From a virus, in IMG/VR virus record IMGVR_UViG_3300042466_001120, positions 1 to 64,000 of that record: a stretch of DNA of 64,000 bases, one strand, 5' to 3'. The notes beneath the pieces are model-generated. The model ran no database searches, was not told the origin of the DNA, and worked only from the letters and a program-made list of their open reading frames with translations. Shown piece by piece: positions 24,547 to 41,049 of this stretch; within the stretch, counting starts at the first letter, position 1, and each line of letters starts with the position of its first letter. The translations under genes and the position numbers were made by a program.

Positions 24547-27500
24547 ATGGCATGTGTTTCAGGATTAACAAATGGGGTATATAGTTATGTAGATTGTTGT
24601 GGTAATTTACAGGCGGGAGTTTCATTAGGTGTGGGTATTTGTATTGATGATACGTACTCTGGTAGTGCGTCTGGCGTTTACATTGCGACAGGACAAACCT
24701 GTACACAAAATTGTAATACAGGAATTTTAACATACACTTTCACCGTAACAGGTGTTTGTGATTCTTCTTCGGGTACCACAGTAATTACACCGTTTGGTGG
24801 TGTTTTACCATATACGATAGATAATATCATACCAGGGACTATAAGTGCTCAGACCAGTAACGGGCCTTTCACTTATACAGGTTTAACGGGGGGTACTTAT
24901 GTTTTTAGACTTAACGATTTTTTAGGGTTACAAAACAACGAGGCGTTTATAAACGTATTTGTTTCTGAATGTTTTATTGCTAATATAACAGATACAACAA
25001 CAACATGTGGGTTGGATAATGGATTTGTATCTGTTAGTGCAACATCAACCAATAGTCCATATAATATTATTCTTTATAAAGACGATGTGTTATATGATGT
25101 CCAACAAACAATAACATTACCTTACATTTTTCCTAGTTTAGGTGCCGGTGAGTACTATGCGACTGTGTTTGATTACGGAGCGGTAAGTGCAAATACACCG
25201 AACATTTTAATATATAGTTCAACAAGTGTTAACTTTGGTTTATGGAAAGTGAACACATCGACATGTGTGATCAACACGGGTAAACTCGCCGTAACAGGAT
25301 TAACAGGAACCGGACCATTCACGTACTTATGGAGTAACGGAGATACAACACAATTAGTTACGGGATTAACTCAAGGAACATATAGTTGTACAGTAACCGA
25401 TAGTATTGGTTGCTCAACCACAGTTTCAGAAACCATAGGACAAGCATTACCTTTAGGAATATTAGGGACAAGTAGTGTTAGTCCGAGTTGTTTTGCGTCT
25501 GATGGTAGTTTAACATATACTGTTTCAGGTGGAACCGCACCGTTTTTCTATTCTGCTAATACGGGACAAGTTGGGTACACTTTATCTGACACGTTTACAT
25601 TGACTAATTTAGGAAGTGGTAATTACAACGTATTAATACGAGATGCTAATTTTTGTGAAATAAACGTTTCAGGATCACTCAACACTCAAAATGGGTTTTC
25701 ATTATCTAGTTTAAACATAACCAACTCAATATGTAGTCAAAACAATGGTGAGATATCGGTTTCAATAAACGGAACGGGTAGTCAAGATTACCTTTATGTG
25801 TTAAGTGCACAGACAGGAGGAACCGTCTATAGTTATTTTGGTACTAACCAAACATTCCAACAAGCGGGGTTAACTAATGGTATTTATGATTTAATTATTT
25901 CGGGGACGGGATCACCTTGTGCTTATACCACAACCGCAACAATAAACTCACAACAAAAATTCACAATAACGGCAACCACTTCAGGATCTACTTGTGGACA
26001 ACCGAACGGTGAAGTCACGGTGACGGTGGGTACGGGATATACTGGATTTATTACTTACGTATTGGAAAACCTCGATACACCATTAGTTAATGATAGTGTA
26101 GTACCATCAACATCATCAAGTGCTGAAACATTCACAAGTTTAATACCAGGAAATTATAGAATAAATGTTATAGATATTCAAGGATGTGTTGTTAGTGAGG
26201 ACTTCTCAATCACGACAACCAACTTTGTTAGTTTTGCGATAAACCCCGTTAATTGTCTTCTTGGTGTTCCGGGATATGCAACCGCATCGATATATCAAGG
26301 AGAACCACCATTCATGTATTTATGGTCTGACGGGCAAACAGGAACGACGGCAACAGGATTAACCGCAGGTACTTATAGTTTGGTTGTTACTGATAGTAAT
26401 ACTTGTTCTGACACCAATTATTTTAATATAACGTGTGTTGGTAATAGTATAGAAGGTTACGAACTTTACAACCTTTGTTCGAATAACTTTAATACCACAT
26501 CGGGAAATCGTCGAGGAATTTCCGAGATGTTCTTTGAAGGGTTTATGGATGCAACATCAGGATATACTGGGTGTACGATAGACAATGCTGATTTAACCTG
26601 TACAATAACGATAAACGGTAGTGCTTTTACACAGACGTTTGCAAATATCACAAACATTGATGATATTCCTTCAGACGACTTATGGGTACAATCGATAGAA
26701 TACTTACTATCATCAACAAGTGCCGTTGGTAGTTATACTATCAACCAATTGAATAACACAATACATATTGAATCTAATTGTAGTGGAGACCAAGACCCTA
26801 TTGGTAATTCTGAATTTAAGTTAGAATTAACCATAGATTATGACTCTACTTGTGCGGGAAGCGCAACAACAACACCTATCGTTGTGTGTTGTGCACCAAC
26901 TATTGTTGACGTAAACGACCTTGGAAGTGGACTTTACGGGATATACTTCAATTTAAATTGTGGTTCATGTACTTTAACATCAATACAATACTCAACAGAC
27001 AGTGGATCAACATGGAGTACTAGTAATACGTCAAGTTGTAGTACATATAGAACAATAGCAACAACGGCAACAACGACAGGAACAACATATTTTAGAATGA
27101 CCAAAAATTGTGGATCAACTATTAGTAACGACTCAAACTCATACATTTACACAACACCAACACCTACCCCTACTCCAACACCTACCCCTACTCCAACACC
27201 AACACCTACCCCAACACCTGGATTTAGGGCGACTGTGGATACTAGAATTGTTTATGGTTCATTATATGATCCATATACTGGTTTGTTTTTACCGGCATCA
27301 ACCGGAAATAATGTTATAAGATTACCATTTAATGTTATCGGACAAACTAATATCACAAACGGAACTATTTATTGGGGGGATGGGACAACCTCAACACTAT
27401 CTTACGCTAACAGAACCCATACATATACAACCGGCCCAGGAATATATCAGATTACTATTACAGTGAATTCTGGAGGAGCCTTTAATGGTATAGGAGCTAA

Positions 27501-27963
27501 CCCAATTGCTAATGATAGATTAAAATTTTTATCAATAGATGAGTGGGGAGATTTACAATTTGATGGGGGTTATACAAATTCTTTCTTTGGATTCCACAAC
27601 CTATCATTGTCAGCAACAACAGATAGTCCACAACTTTATGATGGCACTCCTGATGATTCATTAGCTTTGTTATTTGAGAACACATTTACAGGATTTACAA
27701 ATATTAATAATATTGGATCTTGGAATGTTAGGGATATTACCAACATGGGGGCATTTTTAGCTAATGGAGGTGTTTACGTATCGGGGTTAAACAGTACAAA
27801 TTATGATAGTTTATTAAACGGATGGGCATCATATGGGTCATCTTTACAAAATGGTGTTATTTGTGACTTTGGTTCTTCTAAATATGGACTATCGGCAGCA
27901 GCATCAAGAACGTACCTAACAGGTACCAAAGGTTGGCTAATAAACGATGGTGGTCCTGTATAA
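24547..27963 (+). CDS. tail adhesin with SprB-type repeats, Pro-Thr linker and BspA-like C-terminus
   Basis: 1138 residues. Repeated modules of the form GTGPFTYLWSNG(D/Q)T, then TGLTxGTYSxxVTDSxGC, occur at about residues 245-300 and 590-640, with weaker copies between. These are SprB-type repeats, known from the flavobacterial gliding adhesin SprB and related surface proteins. A (PT)n linker (about 870-891) leads to a PKD-like unit (IYWGDGTTS ... HTYTTGPGIYQITI) and a C-terminal region with IGSWNVRDITNMGAFL and GWLINDGG, resembling BspA/DUF285 repeats. It is probably an exposed receptor-binding protein built from host-type adhesin modules. Confidence 0.85.
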   Translation: MACVSGLTNGVYSYVDCCGNLQAGVSLGVGICIDDTYSGSASGVYIATGQTCTQNCNTGILTYTFTVTGVCDSSSGTTVITPFGGVLPYTIDNIIPGTISAQTSNGPFTYTGLTGGTYVFRLNDFLGLQNNEAFINVFVSECFIANITDTTTTCGLDNGFVSVSATSTNSPYNIILYKDDVLYDVQQTITLPYIFPSLGAGEYYATVFDYGAVSANTPNILIYSSTSVNFGLWKVNTSTCVINTGKLAVTGLTGTGPFTYLWSNGDTTQLVTGLTQGTYSCTVTDSIGCSTTVSETIGQALPLGILGTSSVSPSCFASDGSLTYTVSGGTAPFFYSANTGQVGYTLSDTFTLTNLGSGNYNVLIRDANFCEINVSGSLNTQNGFSLSSLNITNSICSQNNGEISVSINGTGSQDYLYVLSAQTGGTVYSYFGTNQTFQQAGLTNGIYDLIISGTGSPCAYTTTATINSQQKFTITATTSGSTCGQPNGEVTVTVGTGYTGFITYVLENLDTPLVNDSVVPSTSSSAETFTSLIPGNYRINVIDIQGCVVSEDFSITTTNFVSFAINPVNCLLGVPGYATASIYQGEPPFMYLWSDGQTGTTATGLTAGTYSLVVTDSNTCSDTNYFNITCVGNSIEGYELYNLCSNNFNTTSGNRRGISEMFFEGFMDATSGYTGCTIDNADLTCTITINGSAFTQTFANITNIDDIPSDDLWVQSIEYLLSSTSAVGSYTINQLNNTIHIESNCSGDQDPIGNSEFKLELTIDYDSTCAGSATTTPIVVCCAPTIVDVNDLGSGLYGIYFNLNCGSCTLTSIQYSTDSGSTWSTSNTSSCSTYRTIATTATTTGTTYFRMTKNCGSTISNDSNSYIYTTPTPTPTPTPTPTPTPTPTPTPGFRATVDTRIVYGSLYDPYTGLFLPASTGNNVIRLPFNVIGQTNITNGTIYWGDGTTSTLSYANRTHTYTTGPGIYQITITVNSGGAFNGIGANPIANDRLKFLSIDEWGDLQFDGGYTNSFFGFHNLSLSATTDSPQLYDGTPDDSLALLFENTFTGFTNINNIGSWNVRDITNMGAFLANGGVYVSGLNSTNYDSLLNGWASYGSSLQNGVICDFGSSKYGLSAAASRTYLTGTKGWLINDGGPV
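27154..27219 (+). repeat. Pro-Thr linker tract
   Basis: About 22 alternating Thr and Pro codons. Codons vary (CCA, CCT, CCC with ACA, ACT, ACC), so the amino-acid pattern appears selected rather than generated only by recent slippage. Confidence 0.9.
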
Positions 27964-28250
27964 TGGCATATTCAATAGACATAACAGGCGTTTCAGGTGG
28001 TACCGCACCGATTAGTTTCTACGCTTGTGACGAATATGGGAACAATTGTTCATTTTTAGGGATTGCTCCTGGTGTTTATATATTACCGGCATTATTACAA
28101 ACGGCAACAACCATTATGATAAAATCTATTGATAGTGGCGGGTGTACGTTCTTTAAAATAATATCTTGTGACGTTGAGACTTTCTTAATTTTAACAGAAC
28201 TTGGAGATTCTTTAACCACAGAAGATGGTGACACTTTAGTTTTTGAATAA
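27963..28250 (+). CDS. small tail-associated protein, paralog 1 of 3
   Basis: 95 residues from the ATG at 27963, whose first base is the last base of the previous stop (TAATG); an upstream TTG at 27933 is possible but unlikely. The fold signature is ITGVSGGTAPISFYACD, a central Gly/Val/Tyr turn, then IKSIDSGGCTFF and an acidic beta tail ending in DGDTLVFE. The proteins at 28266 and 36373 share this layout (Ile-Thr strand, Gly turn, paired Cys, an I(K/R)I(I/D)D-type strand ending in GC or NC, acidic/aromatic tail). Function unknown; likely a small tail or fibre accessory. Confidence 0.82.
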   Translation: MAYSIDITGVSGGTAPISFYACDEYGNNCSFLGIAPGVYILPALLQTATTIMIKSIDSGGCTFFKIISCDVETFLILTELGDSLTTEDGDTLVFE

Positions 28251-28265: not shown

Positions 28266-28553
28266 ATGATAGTTAATATAACAGGAGACACAGGAGGGTT
28301 AGAACCATACGACATTTTTTTATGTGATCCAACAAATACGGGTTGTTTCTACGTTTCAGGATTAACAAACATACCTGCAACGGTTGTTATTAATACGGAA
28401 AGTTATTTTCCAAACGAAAATTACCTTTATTTAAGAATTATTGATACAAATGGATGTGTTTACTCGACAGTTATTGATTGTGCGGGTCAAAAGGCGTTCC
28501 AAAATGATATATACTTTAATTTTATGGACGGGTTTGGTTATATTTTCCAATAA
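28266..28553 (+). CDS. small tail-associated protein, paralog 2 of 3
   Basis: 95 residues. It has the same plan as its upstream neighbour: N-terminal ITGDTGGLEPYDIFLCD, central GLTNIPATVVI, then RIIDTNGCVYSTVIDC and a C-terminal aromatic tail (FNFMDGFGYIF). Cys positions are conserved between paralogs. It has its own TATTTAT motif and sits directly before the long fibre gene. No enzymatic motif is present. Confidence 0.82.
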   Translation: MIVNITGDTGGLEPYDIFLCDPTNTGCFYVSGLTNIPATVVINTESYFPNENYLYLRIIDTNGCVYSTVIDCAGQKAFQNDIYFNFMDGFGYIFQ

Positions 28554-28574: not shown

Positions 28575-31500
28575 ATGCCAACATATCAATTATTAACAGA
28601 CAGGTCTTTAGCCCAATCATCGGCAATAACGCCGACGACACTCATACATATTGTTTATACTGGTGACCCATCTCAAAATATTGCGGGATCATCATATAAG
28701 GCCGAACTTGGACAACTTGCCGGATTATTTAGTGGTACGTCAGATACTTTTGTTACAGGAGGAACCTATTCTGCTGGTACAATAACATTTATAAACAGTA
28801 GCGGCGGAACTTTTGATGTAACCGGATTAACTACAGGTGACACAACGACAATTACAGGAGCAACTAGTGTTGGTACGGGTGTTACAATATTTGATAGTGT
28901 AATTGATAGGGATATAAAAATAAATTCTATCACGGGAGACACTTTAGAAAAGATAACTACCACATTATTTTCTAACACTATTGAGGTCGGAATTAATGAA
29001 CAAAATTTAGATTTGTGGTCTTTAGTTGTACAAGGTAATCGATTAATAAGTGGAGGTGTCTCGTATGTTAGTGGATTAACTTTCGAAACGAGTGCTTTGG
29101 AATACATTATTGGTGGTACAATATACGACATACCACTACCAACCACACTTGTTTTGAGTAGTGGTGATCCTGTTTTTAATAGAATCGATGTTATTGTTGC
29201 TGATGTGAGTGGAAATACTTCGGTAGTGGGGGGTACTCCGTCCGCAAATCCAGAAAAACCTGATATTGACGAAGAAACTCAAGTTGAAGTGACGTTTGTA
29301 TCAATACCTGCAAATGGTACGACACCAGATATAGATTTATTATTATTATATAACGAAAATGTGGGGCCACCAACTGAATGGTCATTTGGTGCAGTTGGTT
29401 TACAACCAACAAGAATAAGTGGATCATCAACTGACCAAACATATAGTGGTTTAACAGCTATTAGAGTTAGTGGGGTTACCGGAACATTTACTACGTCGTT
29501 CAGATTGACAGGATCAACAACGGTAGACACAAACCAATTCGCAACATTACAGTTTGCGATAAGAAATTTATCAGCAAACACAACATCAAGTCAAATACGG
29601 TTGGGTTTTAGAACCACTGGAAACACACAGAACGGTAATTATGTTTATATGAATGCTGCTGGTTCTTCGGGGTATGTTCAATATAGTAGTACGAATACGT
29701 CCTCTTGGCAGTTAATATCAATACCTTTATGGAGATTTTACTTAACTAACACAAACGTTCAAGTTTTAGATGTTTCATTTAATAGTCCGAACGCTAGGTA
29801 CTATTTTGATATGATACAATTAGTTGAGGGATTAGCCTCGTCTCCACCTACTAACGCATGGACAACAATTAAAGGTGATGGATCGACGACGATTATCGCC
29901 CCTAACCCTAACGCCACTTTAACTATATCAGGTGGTACAAACATCGGTTCTTTTATATCTGGAGCCTCAACAGTTGTTTTAAACTTGGACAATAATATTA
30001 ATTTAAATGGTGTTACAGCGTCAACAATATCCGCAACCACATATCAAAATTTACCTTCAAGTACCTTTACTGGTGGAACTGTAAGTGGCACAACTAACTT
30101 TACAAATGGGTTAAGTGCAAACACAATATCAGCAACAACATATCAGAATTTACCAACAGATATTAGAGTTACAGGTGGAACATACTCCGCCGGAACTATC
30201 TCATTCACTAACAACACCGGTGGGACTTTTAATGTAACCGGATTAACCACAGGATCAACATCAACCGTAAGTGGTAATTTTTTACCATTAAGTGGTGGGA
30301 CAGTAACAGGAGGAACCATTTTCCAAAGCGGATTAACCGCAACAACAATATCCGCAACAACATATTTAAACTTACCATTAGACATAAGAGTGACTGGTGG
30401 AACGTATTCTGCAGGTACAACAACATTTACTAACAACACGGGAGGCACATTTAACGTAACGGGTTTTACTACCGGATCAACATCATCAGTAAGTGGGGAG
30501 TATTTACCTTTAAGTGGTGGGACCGTAAGTGGAGCAACAAACTTCACAAATGGGTTAACTGCAAACACAATGTCCGCTAGTACTTTATTTGTAAATGGAG
30601 TAAAAATTACCGGAGATACATATGTTACAGGACTAACATTCAATACATTAAATTATAATTTAACGTTAGGAAGAAACGATGGTGTTACATTTACTGATAA
30701 TTTAGGTGTTTTAGCTTCAGATAATACAATAACAGGAGGAACGTATAACTCATTAACAGGTGTCGGTACGTTTACTAATAACACTGGAGGAACATTTGAT
30801 GTTTCAGGGTTTTTAGTTGGATACACAGATGTTGAAGTTACGGGATCAACATACAACAATAACACCTTTACGTTTACAAATTCAACGGGAGGTACTTTTG
30901 ATGTATTATTCAATACTGTCACAGGATTAACGTCAACAGGATTGGTTTCATCTAATACTATATCTGCAACAACATATTTAAACTTACCATTAGACATAAG
31001 GGTGACTGGTGGAACGTATTCTGCAGGTACAACAACATTTACGAACAACACAGGAGGAACTTTTAACGTAACAGGATTCACTACAGGTACTACCTCATCA
31101 GTAAGTGGGGATTATTTACCTTTAAGTGGGGGGACTGTAAGTGGGTCAACAACCTTCACTAACGGGTTAACGGCAAATACAATAAGTGCTACAACATATT
31201 TAAACATATCCGTACCAACACTGAACCAAGTTCTAATTGAAGGTAATCAAACTTTAGGTGAAGATATCGTTTTAAATGATATGGATAGTATTATCAATAC
31301 CGGTAATACTATCGGAATACAATTTAAAACCGGTGCGACGATGTACCAATATGCTACGGATAATATAGATAAAACAACTGAAATAAGTTTAGATAAAGAA
31401 TTTATAACATTAAACGCTACAAATAATGATGATGGATATTATGCTACAATTCAACTTGATGTAAGTAATAACGTGATGTTTGAAATTGTTGGAGACCCCG

Positions 31501-33449
31501 CTTTAAATAATTTTAGTAGAACGACAAGACAACTTGGTGTTATAAATGATTATGTTGGTAATTCAACAAATACAGACTATTCAAGTGTAAATCAAAAGGA
31601 TGATCAAATATCTAGTATAATCGTTTCAGGTAGTAGTGAAGTAACTAAATGGAAATTAAACAATAATCAAATATCAGGTTCAACAACAAATGGTGTAAAT
31701 ACAACCCTTATTTCTTTAACCCCTAATAATTTTAGAGTAGAAACGGATAATAATCAAAATATATTTTTTGTTGATGGTACAAATAACAGGGTAGGTATAT
31801 CTACAAACACACCGACAGAAAAATTAACAGTTAGTGGTAATACAAATATTACAGGAACATTAAACATTGGTACAATTGGGGCTGGAACACCTTTAATTAA
31901 TTTAGGGTTGGATTCTAGTGGGAATGTCGTTACAGGTACAACAGGTGGAGGAACTTTTACCGGAGGAACAGTTAATGGGGCGACAAATTTTACAAATGGA
32001 TTAACCGCGAATACAATTTCTGCTACCACATATCAAAACCTACCATTAGATATCCGTATAACAGGAGCAACATATTCTAACAACACTTTCACACATAGAA
32101 ATAACACCGGAGGAACGTACACCGTTTTATTTAACACGGTTACGGGTTTGACGGTAAACGGTCAGTTATCTGTTACAGGTAATACTTCTTTACGAGGGTT
32201 AACTGCAACAACAATATCCGCTACAACATACCAAAATCTACCAACGGATATTCGTATAACAGGTGCTACTTATTCTAACAACACTTTTACACATAGAAAT
32301 AATACAGGTGGCACATACACGGTTTTATTTAATACGGTTACAGGGTTAACAATTAATGGTAATTTAACAGTTACTGGTAGTACTAATCTAAAAACATTAA
32401 CGGCAACAACGACAACAATTAATGGTAACTTAACTGTTACTGGTAGTACTTTTAATTTTGACGGAACTACCTTAGACCTGAAAAAAAATAGTACAAACCC
32501 AAATCTAATTATAAGTGACACGGGCAATACTTTAAACGACCCGTATATTAGGTTTGTTGCTACATCCGCAGGAACACCAACATATTCGATGGGTGTTGAT
32601 AAATCGGCGTCAAACTCATTTAATGTGTCATATAGAACAGACACATCAGCATCACCAAGTAATACGGGTTTATATTTACAATTCACAACAGGGTTTACTC
32701 TTAACTTACCTACCATTAGTAATAGCCCTACCCTTGCTTTAGGTCTTAGTGGAATGACATTTATTATTGCTAGTAATGCGGCACAACTTAAAATATTCGA
32801 TGGGTCGAGTCGAAATAGAAATATAGAGTTTACTCAATATGCGACATATGGTACTTGGCTTGCTAACAATGGTGGATCTGCTGGTAGTCAACACTTTATT
32901 TTAAATAATGTGACTTCAGGTGAGACATTATTTGGTGGATTACAAAAATCAGATGAAGTATCCATTTTTCACAGTGGTAGAACGGAAGTAGACGGTGGAT
33001 TTGGAGTTTTAGTTAGAGGTAATTTAAAGGTAACCGGTACTACAAGTGTTGGTACTGTTATTGGCACGGGAGCGGCATTAAGTAGAGATGCAACAACCGG
33101 TATTTTGGCTGTGGTAGTATCAGATGAAAGATTAAAACAAAACGTTGAGCAAATACCAAATGCATTAAATATAGTTAATAATTTACGTGGAGTTTACTAT
33201 AATTGGAAAGATAATGAAGACTTCCAATCAGGTGATAGTTCAAGACAATTTGGTTTTATTGCACAAGAAGTGGAAACTTATTTACCTGAGGCGGTAATCT
33301 TAAGCGGTAGTAAAGATTATAAAACTGTTAAGTATTCTGAAATAACTTCAGTTTTAGTTGAAGCTATTAAAGAACAACAACAAATGATAGAAGATCTAAA
33401 AGTGGAAATTACAAATTTAAAACTAAGGGTTACTAATTTAGAATCTTAA
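28575..33449 (+). CDS. long tail fibre with repeats and a C-terminal S74 intramolecular chaperone
   Basis: 1624 residues. Residues 1-50 hold an anchor-like module (ITPTTLIHIVYTGDPSQN) shared with the 36677 protein. The middle consists of many Thr/Gly/Asn repeats (ISATTYxNLP, DIRVTGGTYSAGT, FTNNTGGTFNVTG, YLPLSGGTVSG) that suggest a trimeric beta-structured shaft. The C-terminal 109 residues begin with SDERLKQN at Ser1516 and contain FGFIAQEV and a terminal coiled coil. This is the peptidase S74 chaperone, which trimerises the fibre and then cleaves itself off just before that Ser. The mature fibre should thus end near residue 1515. It is the probable main receptor-binding fibre. Confidence 0.92.
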   Translation: MPTYQLLTDRSLAQSSAITPTTLIHIVYTGDPSQNIAGSSYKAELGQLAGLFSGTSDTFVTGGTYSAGTITFINSSGGTFDVTGLTTGDTTTITGATSVGTGVTIFDSVIDRDIKINSITGDTLEKITTTLFSNTIEVGINEQNLDLWSLVVQGNRLISGGVSYVSGLTFETSALEYIIGGTIYDIPLPTTLVLSSGDPVFNRIDVIVADVSGNTSVVGGTPSANPEKPDIDEETQVEVTFVSIPANGTTPDIDLLLLYNENVGPPTEWSFGAVGLQPTRISGSSTDQTYSGLTAIRVSGVTGTFTTSFRLTGSTTVDTNQFATLQFAIRNLSANTTSSQIRLGFRTTGNTQNGNYVYMNAAGSSGYVQYSSTNTSSWQLISIPLWRFYLTNTNVQVLDVSFNSPNARYYFDMIQLVEGLASSPPTNAWTTIKGDGSTTIIAPNPNATLTISGGTNIGSFISGASTVVLNLDNNINLNGVTASTISATTYQNLPSSTFTGGTVSGTTNFTNGLSANTISATTYQNLPTDIRVTGGTYSAGTISFTNNTGGTFNVTGLTTGSTSTVSGNFLPLSGGTVTGGTIFQSGLTATTISATTYLNLPLDIRVTGGTYSAGTTTFTNNTGGTFNVTGFTTGSTSSVSGEYLPLSGGTVSGATNFTNGLTANTMSASTLFVNGVKITGDTYVTGLTFNTLNYNLTLGRNDGVTFTDNLGVLASDNTITGGTYNSLTGVGTFTNNTGGTFDVSGFLVGYTDVEVTGSTYNNNTFTFTNSTGGTFDVLFNTVTGLTSTGLVSSNTISATTYLNLPLDIRVTGGTYSAGTTTFTNNTGGTFNVTGFTTGTTSSVSGDYLPLSGGTVSGSTTFTNGLTANTISATTYLNISVPTLNQVLIEGNQTLGEDIVLNDMDSIINTGNTIGIQFKTGATMYQYATDNIDKTTEISLDKEFITLNATNNDDGYYATIQLDVSNNVMFEIVGDPALNNFSRTTRQLGVINDYVGNSTNTDYSSVNQKDDQISSIIVSGSSEVTKWKLNNNQISGSTTNGVNTTLISLTPNNFRVETDNNQNIFFVDGTNNRVGISTNTPTEKLTVSGNTNITGTLNIGTIGAGTPLINLGLDSSGNVVTGTTGGGTFTGGTVNGATNFTNGLTANTISATTYQNLPLDIRITGATYSNNTFTHRNNTGGTYTVLFNTVTGLTVNGQLSVTGNTSLRGLTATTISATTYQNLPTDIRITGATYSNNTFTHRNNTGGTYTVLFNTVTGLTINGNLTVTGSTNLKTLTATTTTINGNLTVTGSTFNFDGTTLDLKKNSTNPNLIISDTGNTLNDPYIRFVATSAGTPTYSMGVDKSASNSFNVSYRTDTSASPSNTGLYLQFTTGFTLNLPTISNSPTLALGLSGMTFIIASNAAQLKIFDGSSRNRNIEFTQYATYGTWLANNGGSAGSQHFILNNVTSGETLFGGLQKSDEVSIFHSGRTEVDGGFGVLVRGNLKVTGTTSVGTVIGTGAALSRDATTGILAVVVSDERLKQNVEQIPNALNIVNNLRGVYYNWKDNEDFQSGDSSRQFGFIAQEVETYLPEAVILSGSKDYKTVKYSEITSVLVEAIKEQQQMIEDLKVEITNLKLRVTNLES
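30000..32440 (+). repeat. degenerate in-frame repeats of the fibre shaft
   Basis: Units encoding ISATTY(Q/L)NLP-(L/T)DIR(V/I)TG(G/A)TY recur near 30120, 30345, 30955, 32010 and 32215, often followed by NNTGGTFNV or NNTGGTYTV and LPLSGGTV segments. DNA identity between neighbouring units is high (for example about 30360-30480 versus 30965-31080). The array could expand or contract by recombination and change fibre length. Confidence 0.85.
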
Positions 33450-33489: not shown

Positions 33490-34689
33490 ATGAAAATTTT
33501 TGTACAAATAGCGTCATACAGAGATCCCGAACTATTACCAACCATTAGAGATTGTATTAATAAAGCAAAATACCCCGAAAATATAACATTTGGAATTTGT
33601 TGGCAACATGATGATACCGAATCAATGGAGGAATTTGCAAATGACCCAAGATTTAAAATATTAGATTACCATTGGAGTTGGAGTAAAGGTCTTTGTTGGG
33701 CTCGTAGTGAAATTCAAAAACTATGGGATGGTGAAGAATACACTATGCAATTAGATTCACATATGCGTTTTGAAAAACAATGGGATGTAGAATTGATTGA
33801 AATGATGAATATGGTTGACTCAGAAAAACCAATAATTTCTTCATACCCTGGTATGTATAGACCAAGTGATAATCAATTACTAAATGTTGAACCATATAAA
33901 ATGGTTGCGAATAATTTCACACCAAGCGGAACTATAATGTTTTTTCCAACCCCAATCGAGAATTGGCAAGATTTAAAAAAACCGATTAGGTCTAGATTTG
34001 TTGCGGGTGGTTATTTTTTTACAATAGGAAAACACTGTGAAGAATATAAGTATGATCCTAATTTATACTTTGCTGGCGATGAGATTAGTTTAGCAATTAG
34101 ATCATACACTTTAGGTTATGATTTTTTTCACCCACATAAAACAATTATTTGGCACGAATATACAAGAGAGGGTAAAACAAAACATTGGACCGATTTTAAT
34201 GAAGATAACAAAAAATCTGGTGTTGTTGAAAAACAATGGTCAGAAATGGACAACGAGGCAAAAAAAAGACTCAGACATATGTTACAAGAAGAGGATAACA
34301 ATATTGATTTAGGTGAATATGGTTTAGGAAGTGTAAGAACACATAAAGAGTATGAAGATTATGCTGGAATAAACTTTAAATATAAAAAACTACACCCGAA
34401 AACATTAAAAGGTATTGAGCCCCCCATTAATGATTACAGCGAGTGGTACCTAAAAGACGAAAAAGAATATGAATATGAATTTGACATTCCATACACGGAA
34501 GACTTTAAATTCATTTACATCGCTATTGAAAATGAAAATGGTGACGTGTTATATAGAAAAGATTTATTAGAATACCAAGAAAAATTAAAAATACAATTTA
34601 AAACCTTAGAGATACCATACAAATGGGTTTATTGGGTTTACAATAATACAGATAATTGGATAAATAGAAAAGATTTCATAATCAATTGA
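33490..34689 (+). CDS. GT60-like glycosyltransferase (Skp1 GlcNAc-transferase family)
   Basis: 399 residues, no signal peptide or membrane anchor, so cytoplasmic. The N-terminus IFVQIASYRDPELLPTIRDC and the block ENITFGICWQHDD match the GT60 (GlcNAc) family, known for Skp1 polypeptide GlcNAc-transferase. The DxD-like metal/nucleotide-sugar site is QLDSHMRF (87-94), and a later acidic motif is FAGDEISLAIR. The C-terminal 120 residues form a separate beta domain. It is predicted to transfer a sugar from a nucleotide-sugar to a protein hydroxyl. It lies between two genes whose products carry long Pro-Thr linkers, which are plausible acceptors. Family assignment is fairly firm; donor and acceptor are inference. 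Confidence 0.85.
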   Translation: MKIFVQIASYRDPELLPTIRDCINKAKYPENITFGICWQHDDTESMEEFANDPRFKILDYHWSWSKGLCWARSEIQKLWDGEEYTMQLDSHMRFEKQWDVELIEMMNMVDSEKPIISSYPGMYRPSDNQLLNVEPYKMVANNFTPSGTIMFFPTPIENWQDLKKPIRSRFVAGGYFFTIGKHCEEYKYDPNLYFAGDEISLAIRSYTLGYDFFHPHKTIIWHEYTREGKTKHWTDFNEDNKKSGVVEKQWSEMDNEAKKRLRHMLQEEDNNIDLGEYGLGSVRTHKEYEDYAGINFKYKKLHPKTLKGIEPPINDYSEWYLKDEKEYEYEFDIPYTEDFKFIYIAIENENGDVLYRKDLLEYQEKLKIQFKTLEIPYKWVYWVYNNTDNWINRKDFIIN

Positions 34690-34719
34690 TAAAAACAATT
34701 AATAAAATGAAATTCCTGT

Positions 34720-34727
34720 TATTTATA
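34720..34727 (+). promoter_or_regulatory. TATTTAT-class promoter candidate before the Pro-Thr adhesin
   Basis: TATTTATATAAAAAAC begins 27 nt before the ATG at 34747. Confidence 0.45.
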
Positions 34728-34746
34728 TAAAAAACTTAAAAATTGA

Positions 34747-36357
34747 ATGGCTGACATAATATTAAGTAGTTGTTGTTACAATCAAATATCATATAGTGCA
34801 ACGAGTTGGCTTGGGTTACAAACTTTAGGTACTGTTTTTAATGTGACCGGAGATACGGTTATAGTTGAAGGGTGCTATACTGTTGTTACCGCAACAACAC
34901 CAACAATAGTAACAACATCGTTAGTTGGTACCGCAACTGTGGTTACAGGGTGTACCGATCCGTCATGTTATTCGTGTTGTGACGACACTATATGTATCGA
35001 ACTATTGGGTAGTACGTATTCGGCAATAACCGGAACATACCAAATTGACGGTAGTTATAATGGTCATATATATTTTACAGGAGGAACAAATCCTGGATAC
35101 GTTTATTTTGACACAACAAAATGGTGCTTAAGTTCATCTTTAGGTGGTGTTTGTGAGTTTTACGGATCAAGCCCAACGACAAGTGAATGTCCTGATTTTG
35201 CTCCAAGCATTCAATCTTCAGGTATTTGTCCAACTCCGACACCCACACCAACAGACCCTTGTTCTATTTTAGATTTTGATATTTTATTGGAGTGTGATAT
35301 ACCAACCCCAACTCCGACCCCTACGCCAACTCCAACACCTACACCTACACCCACACCAACCCCTACGGTTGACCCTTGTTCTGGGTTTAGTGCTAATTTA
35401 TCATACAGTGAGGTTACACCGACCCCTACACCAACTCCGACTCCTACACCAACACCGACACCGACAGGAATACCTGTTACGGGAGAAAGTGTTACATTTG
35501 TTGTTGATCAGGGTTATTTTGTTTGTCCTACCGTTAAGAAATTAGTCGACTGTCAGACGACCGATATATATTACGTATCTGACAATTTATTATTTAGTGG
35601 ATCACAAATAACCACAGGAACGACGTTTGTTGTTACGTTAAGTGATTTTAATTCTGACCAAATACAGTGTGTTACATACACCGAAAATGTTGGAGGATCA
35701 CCAAATAGGGTTGTGGTTGAAATAATAGAGTTGATATCAGGTTGTACTGGATGTAATTTACCGACACCAACCCCTACACCAACACCAACCCCTACACCAA
35801 CACCAACGGCAACCCCCACACCAACATCATATCCAGTCAACACTTCTTTTGTGTTCACGTCGTGTACAAACAATAGTATGATAATACAAGTAGCATACCC
35901 ACCATCAAATGTGGTGGTTGACGATATACTAAAAACTACTGGTGGAACTTGTTATCGATATATTGGTAATTTTGTTGGTTATGCACCACCAAGTGGATTT
36001 ATAATTGCAAACACAAATATATTTACATCATCAGCACAGACGGTTTACGATTCTTGTGTTGAGTGTAATACGCCTGTAATAACAGGAACCACATATAAAA
36101 CGTGGGAAGCTAAAGGGGAATATTCTGTTTCTTGCCCTGTCTGTCAATTAACTAACTTCGGGGCAGCAATCACATTCTACACTTCATCTGCCAACACAAT
36201 AATGCAAACGGGAGTTTATATTTATAAAGATATTAATTTAACAAAACCAGTAACTATTGATTATGTACAATACGGAACTAAAATCTATAGGGTAGATACA
36301 TATGGTATGGTAACAGAATATTGTACATTAAACGGAAATTGTAAAAAAATAACATAA
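34747..36357 (+). CDS. Cys-rich tail adhesin with four Pro-Thr linkers
   Basis: 536 residues arranged as Cys-containing beta domains joined by (PT)n linkers at about residues 162-170, 186-207, 224-240 and 339-360. The N-terminal domain has several Cys pairs ([16 protein letters not shown]) and a Gly/Tyr/Thr beta domain. The C-terminal domain contains SCVECN and CPVCQ pairs. The layout is that of beads on proline-rich rods, as in surface adhesins and modular glycoside hydrolases. There is no S74 chaperone or signal peptide. Placed right after the glycosyltransferase, it is the best candidate acceptor for glycosylation. Role inferred as tail adhesin. Confidence 0.8.
35230..35826 (+). repeat. 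four Pro-Thr tracts in one gene
   Basis: In-frame tracts lie at about 35230-35253, 35302-35367, 35416-35466 and 35761-35826, the last interrupted by one Ala codon. All four Pro and all four Thr codons are used, so the tracts are not simple identical-unit expansions. Confidence 0.9.
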
Positions 36358-36372: not shown

Positions 36373-36657
36373 ATGTCATATCAGATAACAATAAACTCAA
36401 TAACTAGCGGAACGTCACCATACGATGTATGGATATGTAATAGTTGTTCAGGTACATGTGTTTATGTTGCAACAACAAATACGGTACCATACACCTTTAC
36501 GTTACCCACAGTATACGAAACATATCCAACATATGTTGTAAAAATTATTGATAATAATAATTGTGTTTTTTGTGAGGTTGCATCGACAACATATAAACAA
36601 TTTGAAGACGGGGAATATTTTGAATTCCAAGACGGAGAAGAATACCAATTTGAATAA
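36373..36657 (+). CDS. small tail-associated protein, paralog 3 of 3
   Basis: 94 residues. It resembles the proteins at 27963 and 28266: N-terminal Ile/Thr strand, SGTSPYDVWICN, central CVYVATTNTVPYTF, then KIIDNNNCVFCEV and an acidic/aromatic tail (FEDGEYFEFQDGEEYQFE). As with paralog 2, it precedes a gene encoding the shared fibre-anchor module, so the small gene and the anchor gene recur as a pair. Function unknown. Confidence 0.82.
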   Translation: MSYQITINSITSGTSPYDVWICNSCSGTCVYVATTNTVPYTFTLPTVYETYPTYVVKIIDNNNCVFCEVASTTYKQFEDGEYFEFQDGEEYQFE

Positions 36658-37201: not shown

Positions 37202-38836
37202 ATGGCAGATTTAAGTGGAAATAGTTGTAATATAATAACACTCTTACCTTTAGGTATAGATTGTGATACCATAAATGCGTCAACACCTGACTCATCAAAT
37301 GGTTATATGGCCATTTTAATAACAGGTGGGACACCACCTTATAATGTATCTTGGAGTAACGGAGCACAAGGTACTTACATAACCAATTTAATTCCTGGTA
37401 ATTACACGGCAACAGTTGTTGATTATTATGGTGATTTTAGTGCGACAACAACATGTGAGGTCGGATATGAAAGTTTTTATTTAGAAAAATTTGAAAAATG
37501 TGTATTAATATCCGCAGTAACACCACAATACATATATTATATCGCATCCACACCATCATTGTTTACCCCTAATAAAGTGTACAAATTAACAACACAAACG
37601 GGATGTTGGACAAGTTTAGGTTTGGAGTTAAATACGGGTCAAACGTATAGTAATTCAGTTGCCGTTAAATCTTCAGGACCATATAACTCATGTTTTGCTT
37701 GTATCGCAAATATACCTGCACCACAACCATATTCCGGACCACTTTGTTTAACAAGATACATACAACCGACAGCCAGTCTGACGACGTTCTATAGTGGTGA
37801 TACTATAAATAATTACCCTTCTTGGACAAGTAGTACACAAACAATCTATTACGATAACACAAATACAAGATGGACTGTTAGTGGTTGGACAACACCTAAC
37901 GTACCATACTTACAAAATCCTAATATACCACCTGTTGGGTCTTGGACACTACCAGGGTCATTCATATCTAACGTTATTGTTGCTACGGGAGTTTGTACGA
38001 CATCACCTTTACAGATAACAGTTCAAACACAAAATCCGGCATGTTCAACAAGTTTAGGATCGGCAACTATTAATGTAGTTGGAGGAACACCACCTTACAT
38101 ATATTCGTTAGACAATATTAATTTCACATCAACTAACCTTTTAACGGGTCTGGCTGCAGGACCAAAAACTGTGTATGTTAAAGATTCTTCACCATTACAA
38201 AATGTAGGGAATCAAGGGTTTTCAATAATCCCAGTTCAAAATTACACGAACTATCAGATAAATGTTAACTTTACCACTCCAGGACTACAATCAACCACCA
38301 CAACGAATCAAACCGCCAATTCCACCACATTATCACAAGACACTAATTTCAATATAAGTCTAACACCAAACACCCCGTTTAATCAACCTTCAACAGTTAA
38401 GTTTGATTTAATTTTTAATGTTGCTACTACCGCATATACAAATTCCACGGACGCTCCGATAATTGCAAACACGATAAATGCGAGTGGAAGTGTTGGATCA
38501 ACTTTACCTGGCGGTATATCATCAATACCTGTTACACAAACAGTAAGTAGACCGTTGTGTATTGCCGGTGACATAATTACAACAACATATACGATCTCAT
38601 ACTTAAATTGTTTATTGACGGACACAACATCAAATATTACAGGAACGATAAACCAATATATAAGTGAAATATGCGCAACTAGTAATTTTTGTATATTAAA
38701 GGCGTATTCCGATGTTACATTAACCGTTAAAAAAATATCATTAACCCCGTTAAATTGTCAGGGTATTGATTCGACAATAATTAATAGAACCGCAAGTGCG
38801 GTAAAATTTGGACCAATTTGTCCGTTACTTTCTTAA
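37202..38836 (+). CDS. tail adhesin with SprB-like repeats
   Basis: 544 residues, starting 3 nt after the previous stop. Residues about 35-85 (ITGGTPPYNVSWSNGAQGTY, then NLIPGNYTATVVD) and about 285-335 (VVGGTPPYIYSLDNINF, then LLTGLAAGPKTVYVKD) are SprB-type repeats. The region between is Cys- and aromatic-rich; the C-terminal 200 residues are Thr/Asn-rich beta structure with several Cys. It has no linker tracts or chaperone. Probably another exposed tail protein; the specific role is unknown. Confidence 0.8.
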   Translation: MADLSGNSCNIITLLPLGIDCDTINASTPDSSNGYMAILITGGTPPYNVSWSNGAQGTYITNLIPGNYTATVVDYYGDFSATTTCEVGYESFYLEKFEKCVLISAVTPQYIYYIASTPSLFTPNKVYKLTTQTGCWTSLGLELNTGQTYSNSVAVKSSGPYNSCFACIANIPAPQPYSGPLCLTRYIQPTASLTTFYSGDTINNYPSWTSSTQTIYYDNTNTRWTVSGWTTPNVPYLQNPNIPPVGSWTLPGSFISNVIVATGVCTTSPLQITVQTQNPACSTSLGSATINVVGGTPPYIYSLDNINFTSTNLLTGLAAGPKTVYVKDSSPLQNVGNQGFSIIPVQNYTNYQINVNFTTPGLQSTTTTNQTANSTTLSQDTNFNISLTPNTPFNQPSTVKFDLIFNVATTAYTNSTDAPIIANTINASGSVGSTLPGGISSIPVTQTVSRPLCIAGDIITTTYTISYLNCLLTDTTSNITGTINQYISEICATSNFCILKAYSDVTLTVKKISLTPLNCQGIDSTIINRTASAVKFGPICPLLS

Positions 38837-38856: not shown

Positions 38857-41049
38857 ATGTCTTACATAATTAAAAATACCTCAGCACTCATTAATACACA
38901 ATTAACCGATGCTGCAAGAAAAAGGTTATCGCAAGGTAAATTCGATATCGCGTATTTCCAAGTTGGAGATAGTGAGGTTTGTTATAACTGTGTTAATGGA
39001 ATGAATTTGGTTGAGTCCAACGTTCTAAGTCCTCAGTATAACTCTCAAAATACGGCACCGATTCCTGACAGAAATAGAATGAACATCAAATATCCACTTT
39101 TTGTGGACTCAACATCTGGTAGTACTTTTGGTATTCCGTATGATGATTCTTATATTGATGATGTTTTTAATAGTGCGGCACCAAGGGGATTCTTTACTGG
39201 TAGTACGGTATTCACTTCTTCGGCATACACTTTAAATCCTAACTTTATAATTGATAATACGACCTTATCATCAGGAACTACAATAACGCTGTCTTCATCT
39301 TCTGTTAATTTAACCGTATCTGGTACCGTAAGTGAGGGTGACTTTATCACTATATTTACAAACGGAAACATATCACCAATATCAGGTAACTCACCTATGT
39401 TTACCTATAAGATAGTTGGAATAACCGGAGACACCTCAACAGCAACGACGGTAACAATACAAGTCGATAGGCAGGTGCCTGATTTTAGTAATATGGGTAT
39501 TACGGGTAATTCGTCTTGTTTATTTTATCCGCAAAAAATGACGGATTTATACGATACGTTCACACCACAACCATATTGGGCAACTGACGTGTTTAATTTT
39601 GAAACAAATTGTGACGTATCACAACGTAACGTGGCGATATGGAATATGAATTCACCTTGGACCGAATCACCGGCTGGTGTTTTTAACAACTTAAATCAAG
39701 ATTATAACTTATATGAGTCAACAGGGTATACAGGATCTAAAGAGTATTTTGGATATAACCTAAATGGTGGTCAAACTGATACCGACTCAACATATTATTA
39801 CAACTCACTATCCGATAAGATTACTGTTAATCCTATTGATCAAAAAGCGATTGGAATCGTACACTACACAAATCAGGCGATAGATAATTTTTATGGTGAA
39901 AAATTTGCCTTTCAAGAATACGATCCGACAAATCCCGGAAATACAGGACAAGCAAGAAACTTCAAAATCAACCTTCCTTGGTTGATGTGGCACAAAAATC
40001 AAAATGCGACCATAGGTGAGGAGTTCTATGTTGACCCATCAGGATTTACTTCATTAAACCTTTTTGAACCACATTATATGGAATCAACTAGGGATTTAAA
40101 CTTTAACGCACCTGGTCTTAGATATTACCATTTGTGGGATACACATGCAAACACTAACGGAATTCCAAATAGAGTAGGTAAGGTATATCCTGACCAAAAA
40201 ATGGTTATATTTGATGATGATGAGATTGTTGCAACACTAAACAACAAATCTAATAGGTCGTGGACTTTACCGGCACCACAATTAGGTCTGATTTTACCAA
40301 ACACCTTATGTGGTGGTGATGGTGGAACAACCGGATTATTATCGGGTAATAGTGAAAGTCTTTTCGTTACTTATAGATTTAACAATAGTGCCTTTACCAA
40401 TTCGTTACATTGTAATTACTACTCAAGAATAAGTGGTTACGATCAAACAATGGTACAAGGATCTACAGACGTATTAGTTAGGTTTGGAAACGAATTTCCA
40501 TTTTTAAGTCCTCAAGTGGGGACCTCACTAAGTGGGTTTAGTGCAAATAACATAAAAATATTAGCACAAAAGGTTAGTAGTGGAACAACAAGACCTAACC
40601 CTATTGCATGGAAAGAAATAGATATTTCCTCACAATTATCGGCAACGACAGTTGGTGGGTATTTAACGTCAACAGGATTAACTGCAACCACAATACAATT
40701 AACTGAGACAATGTATAATTCTGCGCCTACATATAGATTGGACAATTACATTAATTTACCATCATTAAATCAAACAGGAACTACGTTTAATTTTGGTGGA
40801 GAGTTTTATTTTTATGGAACGATACAAACAGACATTCAAGCAACAATATACGTTATGAACTATCTTTGTAATTTAGGACAAACACAGTTCTTCGACTCAT
40901 CGAACCCTACTTGGAGTAAAACTAAGACGCCACACGTCACGGAAGTTGCTCTTTACAACGCGGATAAAGAACTTATGGTTATTTCTAAGATACAATCACC
41001 CGAAAAAAGACAGGGAATACAACAGTATCCTATTAAATTAGATTTTTAA
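38857..41049 (+). CDS. tail fibre/baseplate-attachment protein
   Basis: 730 residues. The N-terminus (INTQLTDAARKRLSQGKFDI, then AYFQVGDSEV) follows the pattern of phage tail-fibre N-terminal domains that read ITxxGxxxLxxG..I.xxxIGDG. Near the C-terminus HVTEVALYNADKELMVISKI matches the ITEVGLFDxxGxLLxxxKI strand of the same fibre families. Between them is a long beta-rich body. This suggests a fibre or fibre-adaptor protein closing the host-recognition operon. No chaperone or catalytic motif is visible. Confidence 0.8.
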   Translation: MSYIIKNTSALINTQLTDAARKRLSQGKFDIAYFQVGDSEVCYNCVNGMNLVESNVLSPQYNSQNTAPIPDRNRMNIKYPLFVDSTSGSTFGIPYDDSYIDDVFNSAAPRGFFTGSTVFTSSAYTLNPNFIIDNTTLSSGTTITLSSSSVNLTVSGTVSEGDFITIFTNGNISPISGNSPMFTYKIVGITGDTSTATTVTIQVDRQVPDFSNMGITGNSSCLFYPQKMTDLYDTFTPQPYWATDVFNFETNCDVSQRNVAIWNMNSPWTESPAGVFNNLNQDYNLYESTGYTGSKEYFGYNLNGGQTDTDSTYYYNSLSDKITVNPIDQKAIGIVHYTNQAIDNFYGEKFAFQEYDPTNPGNTGQARNFKINLPWLMWHKNQNATIGEEFYVDPSGFTSLNLFEPHYMESTRDLNFNAPGLRYYHLWDTHANTNGIPNRVGKVYPDQKMVIFDDDEIVATLNNKSNRSWTLPAPQLGLILPNTLCGGDGGTTGLLSGNSESLFVTYRFNNSAFTNSLHCNYYSRISGYDQTMVQGSTDVLVRFGNEFPFLSPQVGTSLSGFSANNIKILAQKVSSGTTRPNPIAWKEIDISSQLSATTVGGYLTSTGLTATTIQLTETMYNSAPTYRLDNYINLPSLNQTGTTFNFGGEFYFYGTIQTDIQATIYVMNYLCNLGQTQFFDSSNPTWSKTKTPHVTEVALYNADKELMVISKIQSPEKRQGIQQYPIKLDF

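Follow-up and report, generated by a model that had tools for sequence, protein, structure and literature searches.

A GT60-type glycosyltransferase gene beside Pro-Thr-linked tail proteins in a virus genome: possible O-glycosylation of a phage tail

Introduction

The polypeptide alpha-GlcNAc-transferases of CAZy family GT60, represented by Skp1 GnT1 of Dictyostelium and TcOGNT1 of Trypanosoma cruzi, have the Pfam family PF11397 and a DxH motif in common and act on polypeptide substrates. The acceptor of the Skp1 enzyme is hydroxyproline (PMC8724618). A preliminary description of the locus studied here took this to be the habit of characterised GT60 enzymes in general, which is true of Skp1 but incomplete because the T. 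cruzi enzyme produces GlcNAc-alpha1-O-Thr on mucins (PMC9472816). Thr is therefore a natural acceptor, and a prolyl hydroxylase is not required. GT60 and GT27 are closely placed families, in which DxH replaces DxD and which have polypeptide Ser/Thr O-glycosylation in common (PMC7185993). The GT27 enzymes, polypeptide GalNAc-transferases, carry out mucin-type chemistry on Pro/Thr-rich segments. All characterised GT60 enzymes that we found in the literature are from protists, and we found no open papers on GT60 or PF11397 together with phage.

Few cases of glycosylation are known among the structural proteins of phages. In mycobacteriophages, glycosyltransferases have been linked to glycans of the capsid and tail tube (Freeman et al. 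2023, as described in PMC12619734). In that description, the glycans lie on the C-termini of capsid and tail tube subunits and not on Pro-Thr linkers, and we liken the system to ours only by the link between glycosyltransferase gene and virion. The best cultivated match of the enzyme described below is ORF334 of the Xanthomonas jumbo phage XacN1 (35.8% identity over 98%). Proteomics of XacN1 detected at least two glycoproteins, which the authors suggest are made by phage glycosyltransferases; the main text does not give the identities of the glycosylated proteins and draws no link from ORF334 to Pro-Thr tracts (PMC5852040). Such tracts do occur in XacN1: ORF325, which encodes 3313 aa and immediately follows two baseplate wedge genes, contains them. 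Enzyme and tracts are thus both present in XacN1, as in our phage, but there the enzyme gene lies ~9 kb from the PT gene, beside a carbamoyltransferase gene, whereas here the two genes adjoin.

The DNA analysed (the window) comprises 64 kb, starting at the first position of a virus record of 109 kb. From its letters, the preliminary description had noticed a GT60/Skp1-type glycosyltransferase between fiber genes, with four (PT)n tracts in the next gene and another in an adhesin encoded upstream, and had proposed that the phage glycosylates its own tail linkers. The observation is confirmed in every element; the interpretation is partly supported, by comparative sequence evidence that we set out here.

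Results

Identity and predicted fold of the enzyme

The ORF at 33490-34689 encodes a protein of 399 aa that contains both motifs quoted in the preliminary description, IASYRDPELLPTIRDC and QLDSHMRF. It matches the Pfam family PF11397, "Glycosyltransferase (GlcNAc)," with a score of 226.6 bits (E 7.9e-67), the curated cutoff being 21, and PHROG 24687, a glycosyltransferase (E 6e-98). The features assigned to it are as follows.

33490..34689, + strand: predicted GT60-type glycosyltransferase, 399 aa (PF11397, AF2 pLDDT 87.8, PDB fold matches)
within 33490..34689, + strand: predicted GT-A catalytic part, residues ~1-300, and C-terminal beta domain, residues ~325-397
33754..33762, + strand: DSH metal-binding motif (DxH), residues 89-91, invariant in 30 homologues
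34153..34155, + strand: His222, candidate C-His of the GT-A core, invariant in 30 homologues

Across the 30 homologues, Asp89-Ser90-His91 and His222 are kept together with Glu198 and a WAR motif. The AlphaFold model (mean pLDDT 87.8) has a GT-A fold with an added C-terminal beta domain of ~75 residues. The preliminary description had suggested a structure-based search against GT60; the PDB matches listed by Foldseek, 50 of 50, were GT27 polypeptide GalNAc-transferases, with E values down to 5.7e-12 and a TM-score of ~0.5 over the whole chain. Sequence identity in these alignments is only 11-16%, and a PDB sequence search with the enzyme gave no match, so that the structural link comes from the predicted model only. 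A PF11397 score above the cutoff, DxH in place of DxD with a conserved metal-binding His (here the candidate His222), and a GT27-like GT-A fold are features of GT60 members that this protein has. Judged from sequence and model, 33490-34689 encodes a GT60-type enzyme whose predicted catalytic residues are kept. It differs from characterised GT60 enzymes, known as it is from sequence, in being phage-encoded, in adjoining tail genes, and in carrying the extra beta domain.

The tail module and its Pro-Thr tracts

The enzyme gene is flanked upstream by an S74 tail-fiber gene (28575-33449) and downstream by the ORF at 34747-36357. Tracts of (PT)3 or longer number four in that ORF and one in the ORF at 24547-27963. 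The relevant features of the module are these.

24547..27963, + strand: 1138-aa SprB-repeat adhesin (PF13573), second candidate acceptor
27157-27219, + strand: (PT)10 tract of this adhesin, residues 871-891
28575..33449, + strand: 1624-aa tail fiber with C-terminal S74 intramolecular chaperone domain (PF13884 E 7e-18; PHROG tail fiber), without a PT tract
34747..36357, + strand: 536-aa tail-module protein in which Pro-Thr tracts join beta-rich domains; the likeliest candidate acceptor
35230..35253, + strand: (PT)4 tract, residues 162-169 of the 536-aa protein
35302..35367, + strand: (PT)11 tract, residues 186-207, the most conserved tract
35419..35466, + strand: (PT)8 tract, residues 225-240
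35761..35808, + strand: (PT)8 tract, residues 339-354
38857..41049, + strand: conserved 730-aa tail-module protein

A further SprB-repeat protein is encoded at 37202, downstream of the enzyme. Proteins of ~95 aa of the ITGVTSGxSPYDIYLC type, encoded at 27933-28250, 28266-28553, and 36373-36657, belong to a large family found in tail modules of this kind (95 members in our first locus set), and some relatives have PT tracts of their own. A 100-aa antisense ORF with Val-Gly repeats (35571-35873, - strand) is a by-product of a PT tract and not a gene. The AF2 model of the 536-aa protein is weak (pLDDT 69), with residues 166-260 and 340-359 disordered, and a fold search with it returned mostly unnamed phage proteins at low TM-scores; for these reasons, we call it only a tail-module protein.

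Searched with a strict DNA pattern for (PT)5, the window gives 21 matches, and 100 dinucleotide shuffles give none. We rejected the idea that the tracts are simple DNA microsatellites, because synonymous codons are mixed, silent sites are saturated, and the protein is kept. Within the tracts of 34747-36357, Pro is encoded by CCA (14), CCT (8), CCG (7), and CCC (2), and Thr by ACA (17), ACC (6), ACT (5), and ACG (3). Among 19 homologues of the 536-aa protein, mean pairwise amino acid identity is 0.88 and 0.80 in two tracts against 0.51 elsewhere, and silent differences at Pro/Thr codons in the same set are 0.62 in tracts and 0.55 elsewhere. The tracts are under protein-level selection, with silent sites saturated. 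In 179 distinct tracts, slots between two Pro are filled by Thr or Ser 94% of the time, and slots between two Thr are filled by Pro 81% of the time. The better keeping of the Thr/Ser slots fits Thr/Ser acceptors, and conservation as protein with the hydroxyl residues best kept is a feature of mucin-type acceptors.

The same comparison bears on whether the acceptor in the tracts is instead hydroxyproline, the residue used by Skp1 GnT1, supplied by a hydroxylase that comes from the host or has escaped detection. Each tract offers many prolines, and there is precedent in the Skp1 enzyme (PMC8724618). But Pro slots are kept less well than Thr/Ser slots, the T. cruzi enzyme uses Thr directly (PMC9472816), and a search of the 109-kb record, which may be incomplete, for 2OG-oxygenases of PF13640, the only such family searched, found none. 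We regard this route as highly improbable.

Co-occurrence of enzyme and tracts across viruses

Among viral loci collected with the enzyme as seed, 34 of 40 have an ORF with (PT)5 or longer, compared with 0 of 71 control viral loci of at least 8 kb picked by a Pro-Asp/Glu repeat. Because the 40 loci are related by descent, the 730-aa tail protein was used as a second, independent seed. In the resulting panel of 82 viral loci, 81 contain (P[T/S])3+ tracts and 68 of the 82 records contain GT60, counts that overstate independence since the loci share ancestry. The one tract-less locus (L447) is truncated by the end of its contig and starts within a P/S/T-rich protein. In several records (L417, L451-L455, L457-L463, L470, and L477), GT60 lies elsewhere in the record; L062, at one point a candidate for a GT60-free phage, was rejected as such because GT60 is found further along its record. 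The coupling that the preliminary description had proposed to check in related phages is therefore borne out, and a glycosyltransferase gene linked to virion protein genes is a feature of virion glycosylation.

We also approached the association from the tracts. GT60 is present in 9 of 38 records picked for a coding (PT)n tract and in 0 of 43 Pro-Asp/Glu records (each at least 20 kb; Fisher 6e-4), although the control contigs differ from the PT-picked ones in environment and base composition. In the other 29 PT-picked contigs, many of them fragments, no GT60 was seen. GT2 is likewise commoner in the PT-picked records (11/38 versus 2/43), and so part of the association of GT60 with PT tracts may be a property of the type of virus and not of the tract.

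The pairing recurs in other backgrounds, namely L022, L033 (with GT32 and sulfotransferase genes), L037/L038 (a glycosyltransferase cluster flanked on both sides by PT proteins), XacN1, RAS14, L322, L324, and L326. A tail-like protein with a KKNATLPxLK start adjoins the GT60 cassette in L323 (6636), L324 (1584), and L326 (5474), and has PT tracts in L324.

The slot upstream of the PT protein

GT60 is the only gene that the window has in the slot directly before the PT protein. In some relatives, the slot contains GT60 and one further gene, for a 265-aa protein without assignment or for one of the HtrL/YibB type. Other relatives have longer cassettes, which include genes of DUF3431, GT34, methyltransferase, sulfotransferase-like, or UDP-galactopyranose mutase type. 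In five closely related phages, four of them panel records and one found by another route, the slot has instead a gene of GT29, a sialyltransferase family, on the opposite strand (L050:2083-2673, L051:5200-5787, L412, L423, and L424). Four GT29 records were checked for GT60 and none was found; PT tracts are still present in them. In L466 and L467, the slot has GT9 and GT1 genes, and again the PT protein persists. This exchange of enzyme families beside a constant PT protein is the strongest sign that the slot does glycosylation, which we take, from gene content, as its probable function.

Several cassettes are of interest in their own right. In L033 (11251-12440), L332, and L448, genes of GT32 or GT25 type and of sulfotransferase type come after GT60, which suggests that sulfated glycans may be made there. 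L039 (9992-14449) has two GT60 genes in tandem, then a GDP-mannose dehydratase-like gene and an FkbM methyltransferase gene. In L474 (959-1939) and L475 (4237-5214), a 325-aa gene with an HDADI motif precedes the PT protein and may encode a glycosyltransferase; its identification as an extensin-type transferase was not upheld, there being no Pfam match and only PHROG 4417, of unknown function, and it is a lead only.

Bacterial homologues

Of the best 80 genomic matches to the enzyme in bacteria, 31 are encoded within type VI secretion clusters that include TssG and TssA (among loci L352, L363, L367, and L371-L407), a setting for GT60 of which we found no description in the literature. In 30 of these 31 clusters, the enzyme is beside a homologue of a protein of L373 that has a fimbrial domain (Pfam check on L373 only). 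The GT60-linked VgrG ends in a long repeat tail, always of Pro with Thr or Ser, in ten of ten genomes of the Burkholderia group (L372, L375, L377, L379, L382, L385, L397, L401, L403, and L406), and the repeat units vary (PT, PPPTE, PPPSEE, PPSET, PPQTEE, PEPSDEQ, and EEPAASD). Such a tail is absent from the available sequence of 21 other VgrGs from these genomes, of which 11 are complete and 10 truncated by the end of the locus; the VgrG of L478 was counted among these others, the linked copy of its genome being the VgrG in L406 (G128:C45).

These tails help to decide whether the enzyme could glycosylate a virion or tail protein outside the PT tracts, the tracts being structural linkers that travel along. 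Such a target would accommodate the 29 of 38 PT-tract contigs without a visible GT60, as well as the conservation of several other tail-module proteins beside the enzyme. However, the VgrG tails track GT60 within genomes despite their differing units, the viral pairing recurs in unrelated tail modules with only the enzyme and P/T-rich proteins in common, and within the tracts it is the Thr/Ser slots that are kept better. A target outside the tracts therefore seems unlikely to us.

GT60 is also found in contractile-injection clusters (L354, L358, and L362, with a CIS_TMP match in L354), and in L354 and L358 the 1200-aa protein adjoining it is P/T-rich. Most other bacterial GT60 loci have no P/T-rich neighbor, so that a link to such tracts is not a property of the entire GT60 family. 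As for the persistence of homologues without a Pro/Thr-rich tail protein, which the preliminary description had held to count against it, the answer is divided: phage homologues almost always have such a protein nearby, but most bacterial ones have no (PT)n neighbor, and many of the latter sit in other contractile machines.

Two minor alternatives also have to be weighed against these contexts. First, the substrate could be a polysaccharide of the host surface, modified, for instance, as a means of blocking superinfection, and the gene would then sit in the tail module as part of a host-range cassette. Serotype-converting phage glycosyltransferases are known (mentioned in PMC12619734), and GT25, GT9, UDP-galactopyranose mutase, and sulfotransferase genes occur in related cassettes. 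But family and fold indicate polypeptide transferases, the slot stays beside the PT protein through enzyme swaps, and the type VI and contractile-injection settings better fit a substrate that is a protein of the machine, so that we think serotype conversion very unlikely. Second, many phage glycosyltransferases glycosylate DNA bases (PMC12619734), and this one could do the same. Its late tail-module position beside PT proteins, its polypeptide-transferase family and fold, and its homologues in type VI secretion clusters all speak against DNA glucosylation, to which we give almost no credence.

Discussion

The explanation that we consider likely, from comparison of sequences, is that a soluble enzyme of the GT60/GT27 kind attaches O-glycans to Thr, and also to Ser, within Pro-Thr tracts of tail proteins that the phage itself encodes. 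We infer catalysis, the donor, Thr as the acceptor, and the mechanical role, as follows. The product of the gene would be a soluble polypeptide O-glycosyltransferase of mucin type with a GT-A fold. It would act late in infection, taking a nucleotide sugar (most likely UDP-GlcNAc or a different UDP-HexNAc) from the cytoplasm of the host and adding the sugar to Thr (and Ser) in PT tracts, chiefly those of the 536-aa neighbor and also that of the 24547 adhesin. Action in the host cytoplasm before assembly would suit both a soluble GT-A enzyme and tail proteins that fold in the cytoplasm. In related phages, the first sugar would probably be extended or capped by further enzymes from the same slot.

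In mucins, dense short glycans on Pro-Thr repeats favor extended, stiff, and protease-resistant stalks. It is because of these properties that we suggest a mechanical role for the tracts, which, when densely glycosylated, would be stiff, extended, and resistant to proteases, and would hold the tail domains apart.

A broader reading, to which we give an even chance, is that contractile tail machines in general, whether of phages, of type VI secretion, or of extracellular contractile injection, employ GT60 as an accessory. A dedicated mucin-type transferase would then O-glycosylate low-complexity Pro/Thr/Ser tracts on tail-tip or fiber proteins, VgrG tails included, and so provide phages and bacteria with a mucin-like stalk chemistry.

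If these ideas are true, mucin-like O-glycosylation of tail stalks would be widespread in aquatic phages. The glycan cassettes would be swappable, from GT60 alone to GT60 with HtrL/YibB-type, GT34, GT25, sulfotransferase, methyltransferase, or UDP-galactopyranose mutase genes, and in some phages GT29 would take the place of GT60. Further, certain VgrG spikes of Burkholderia-group type VI secretion systems would be glycoproteins. The idea is directly testable in XacN1, a phage in cultivation.
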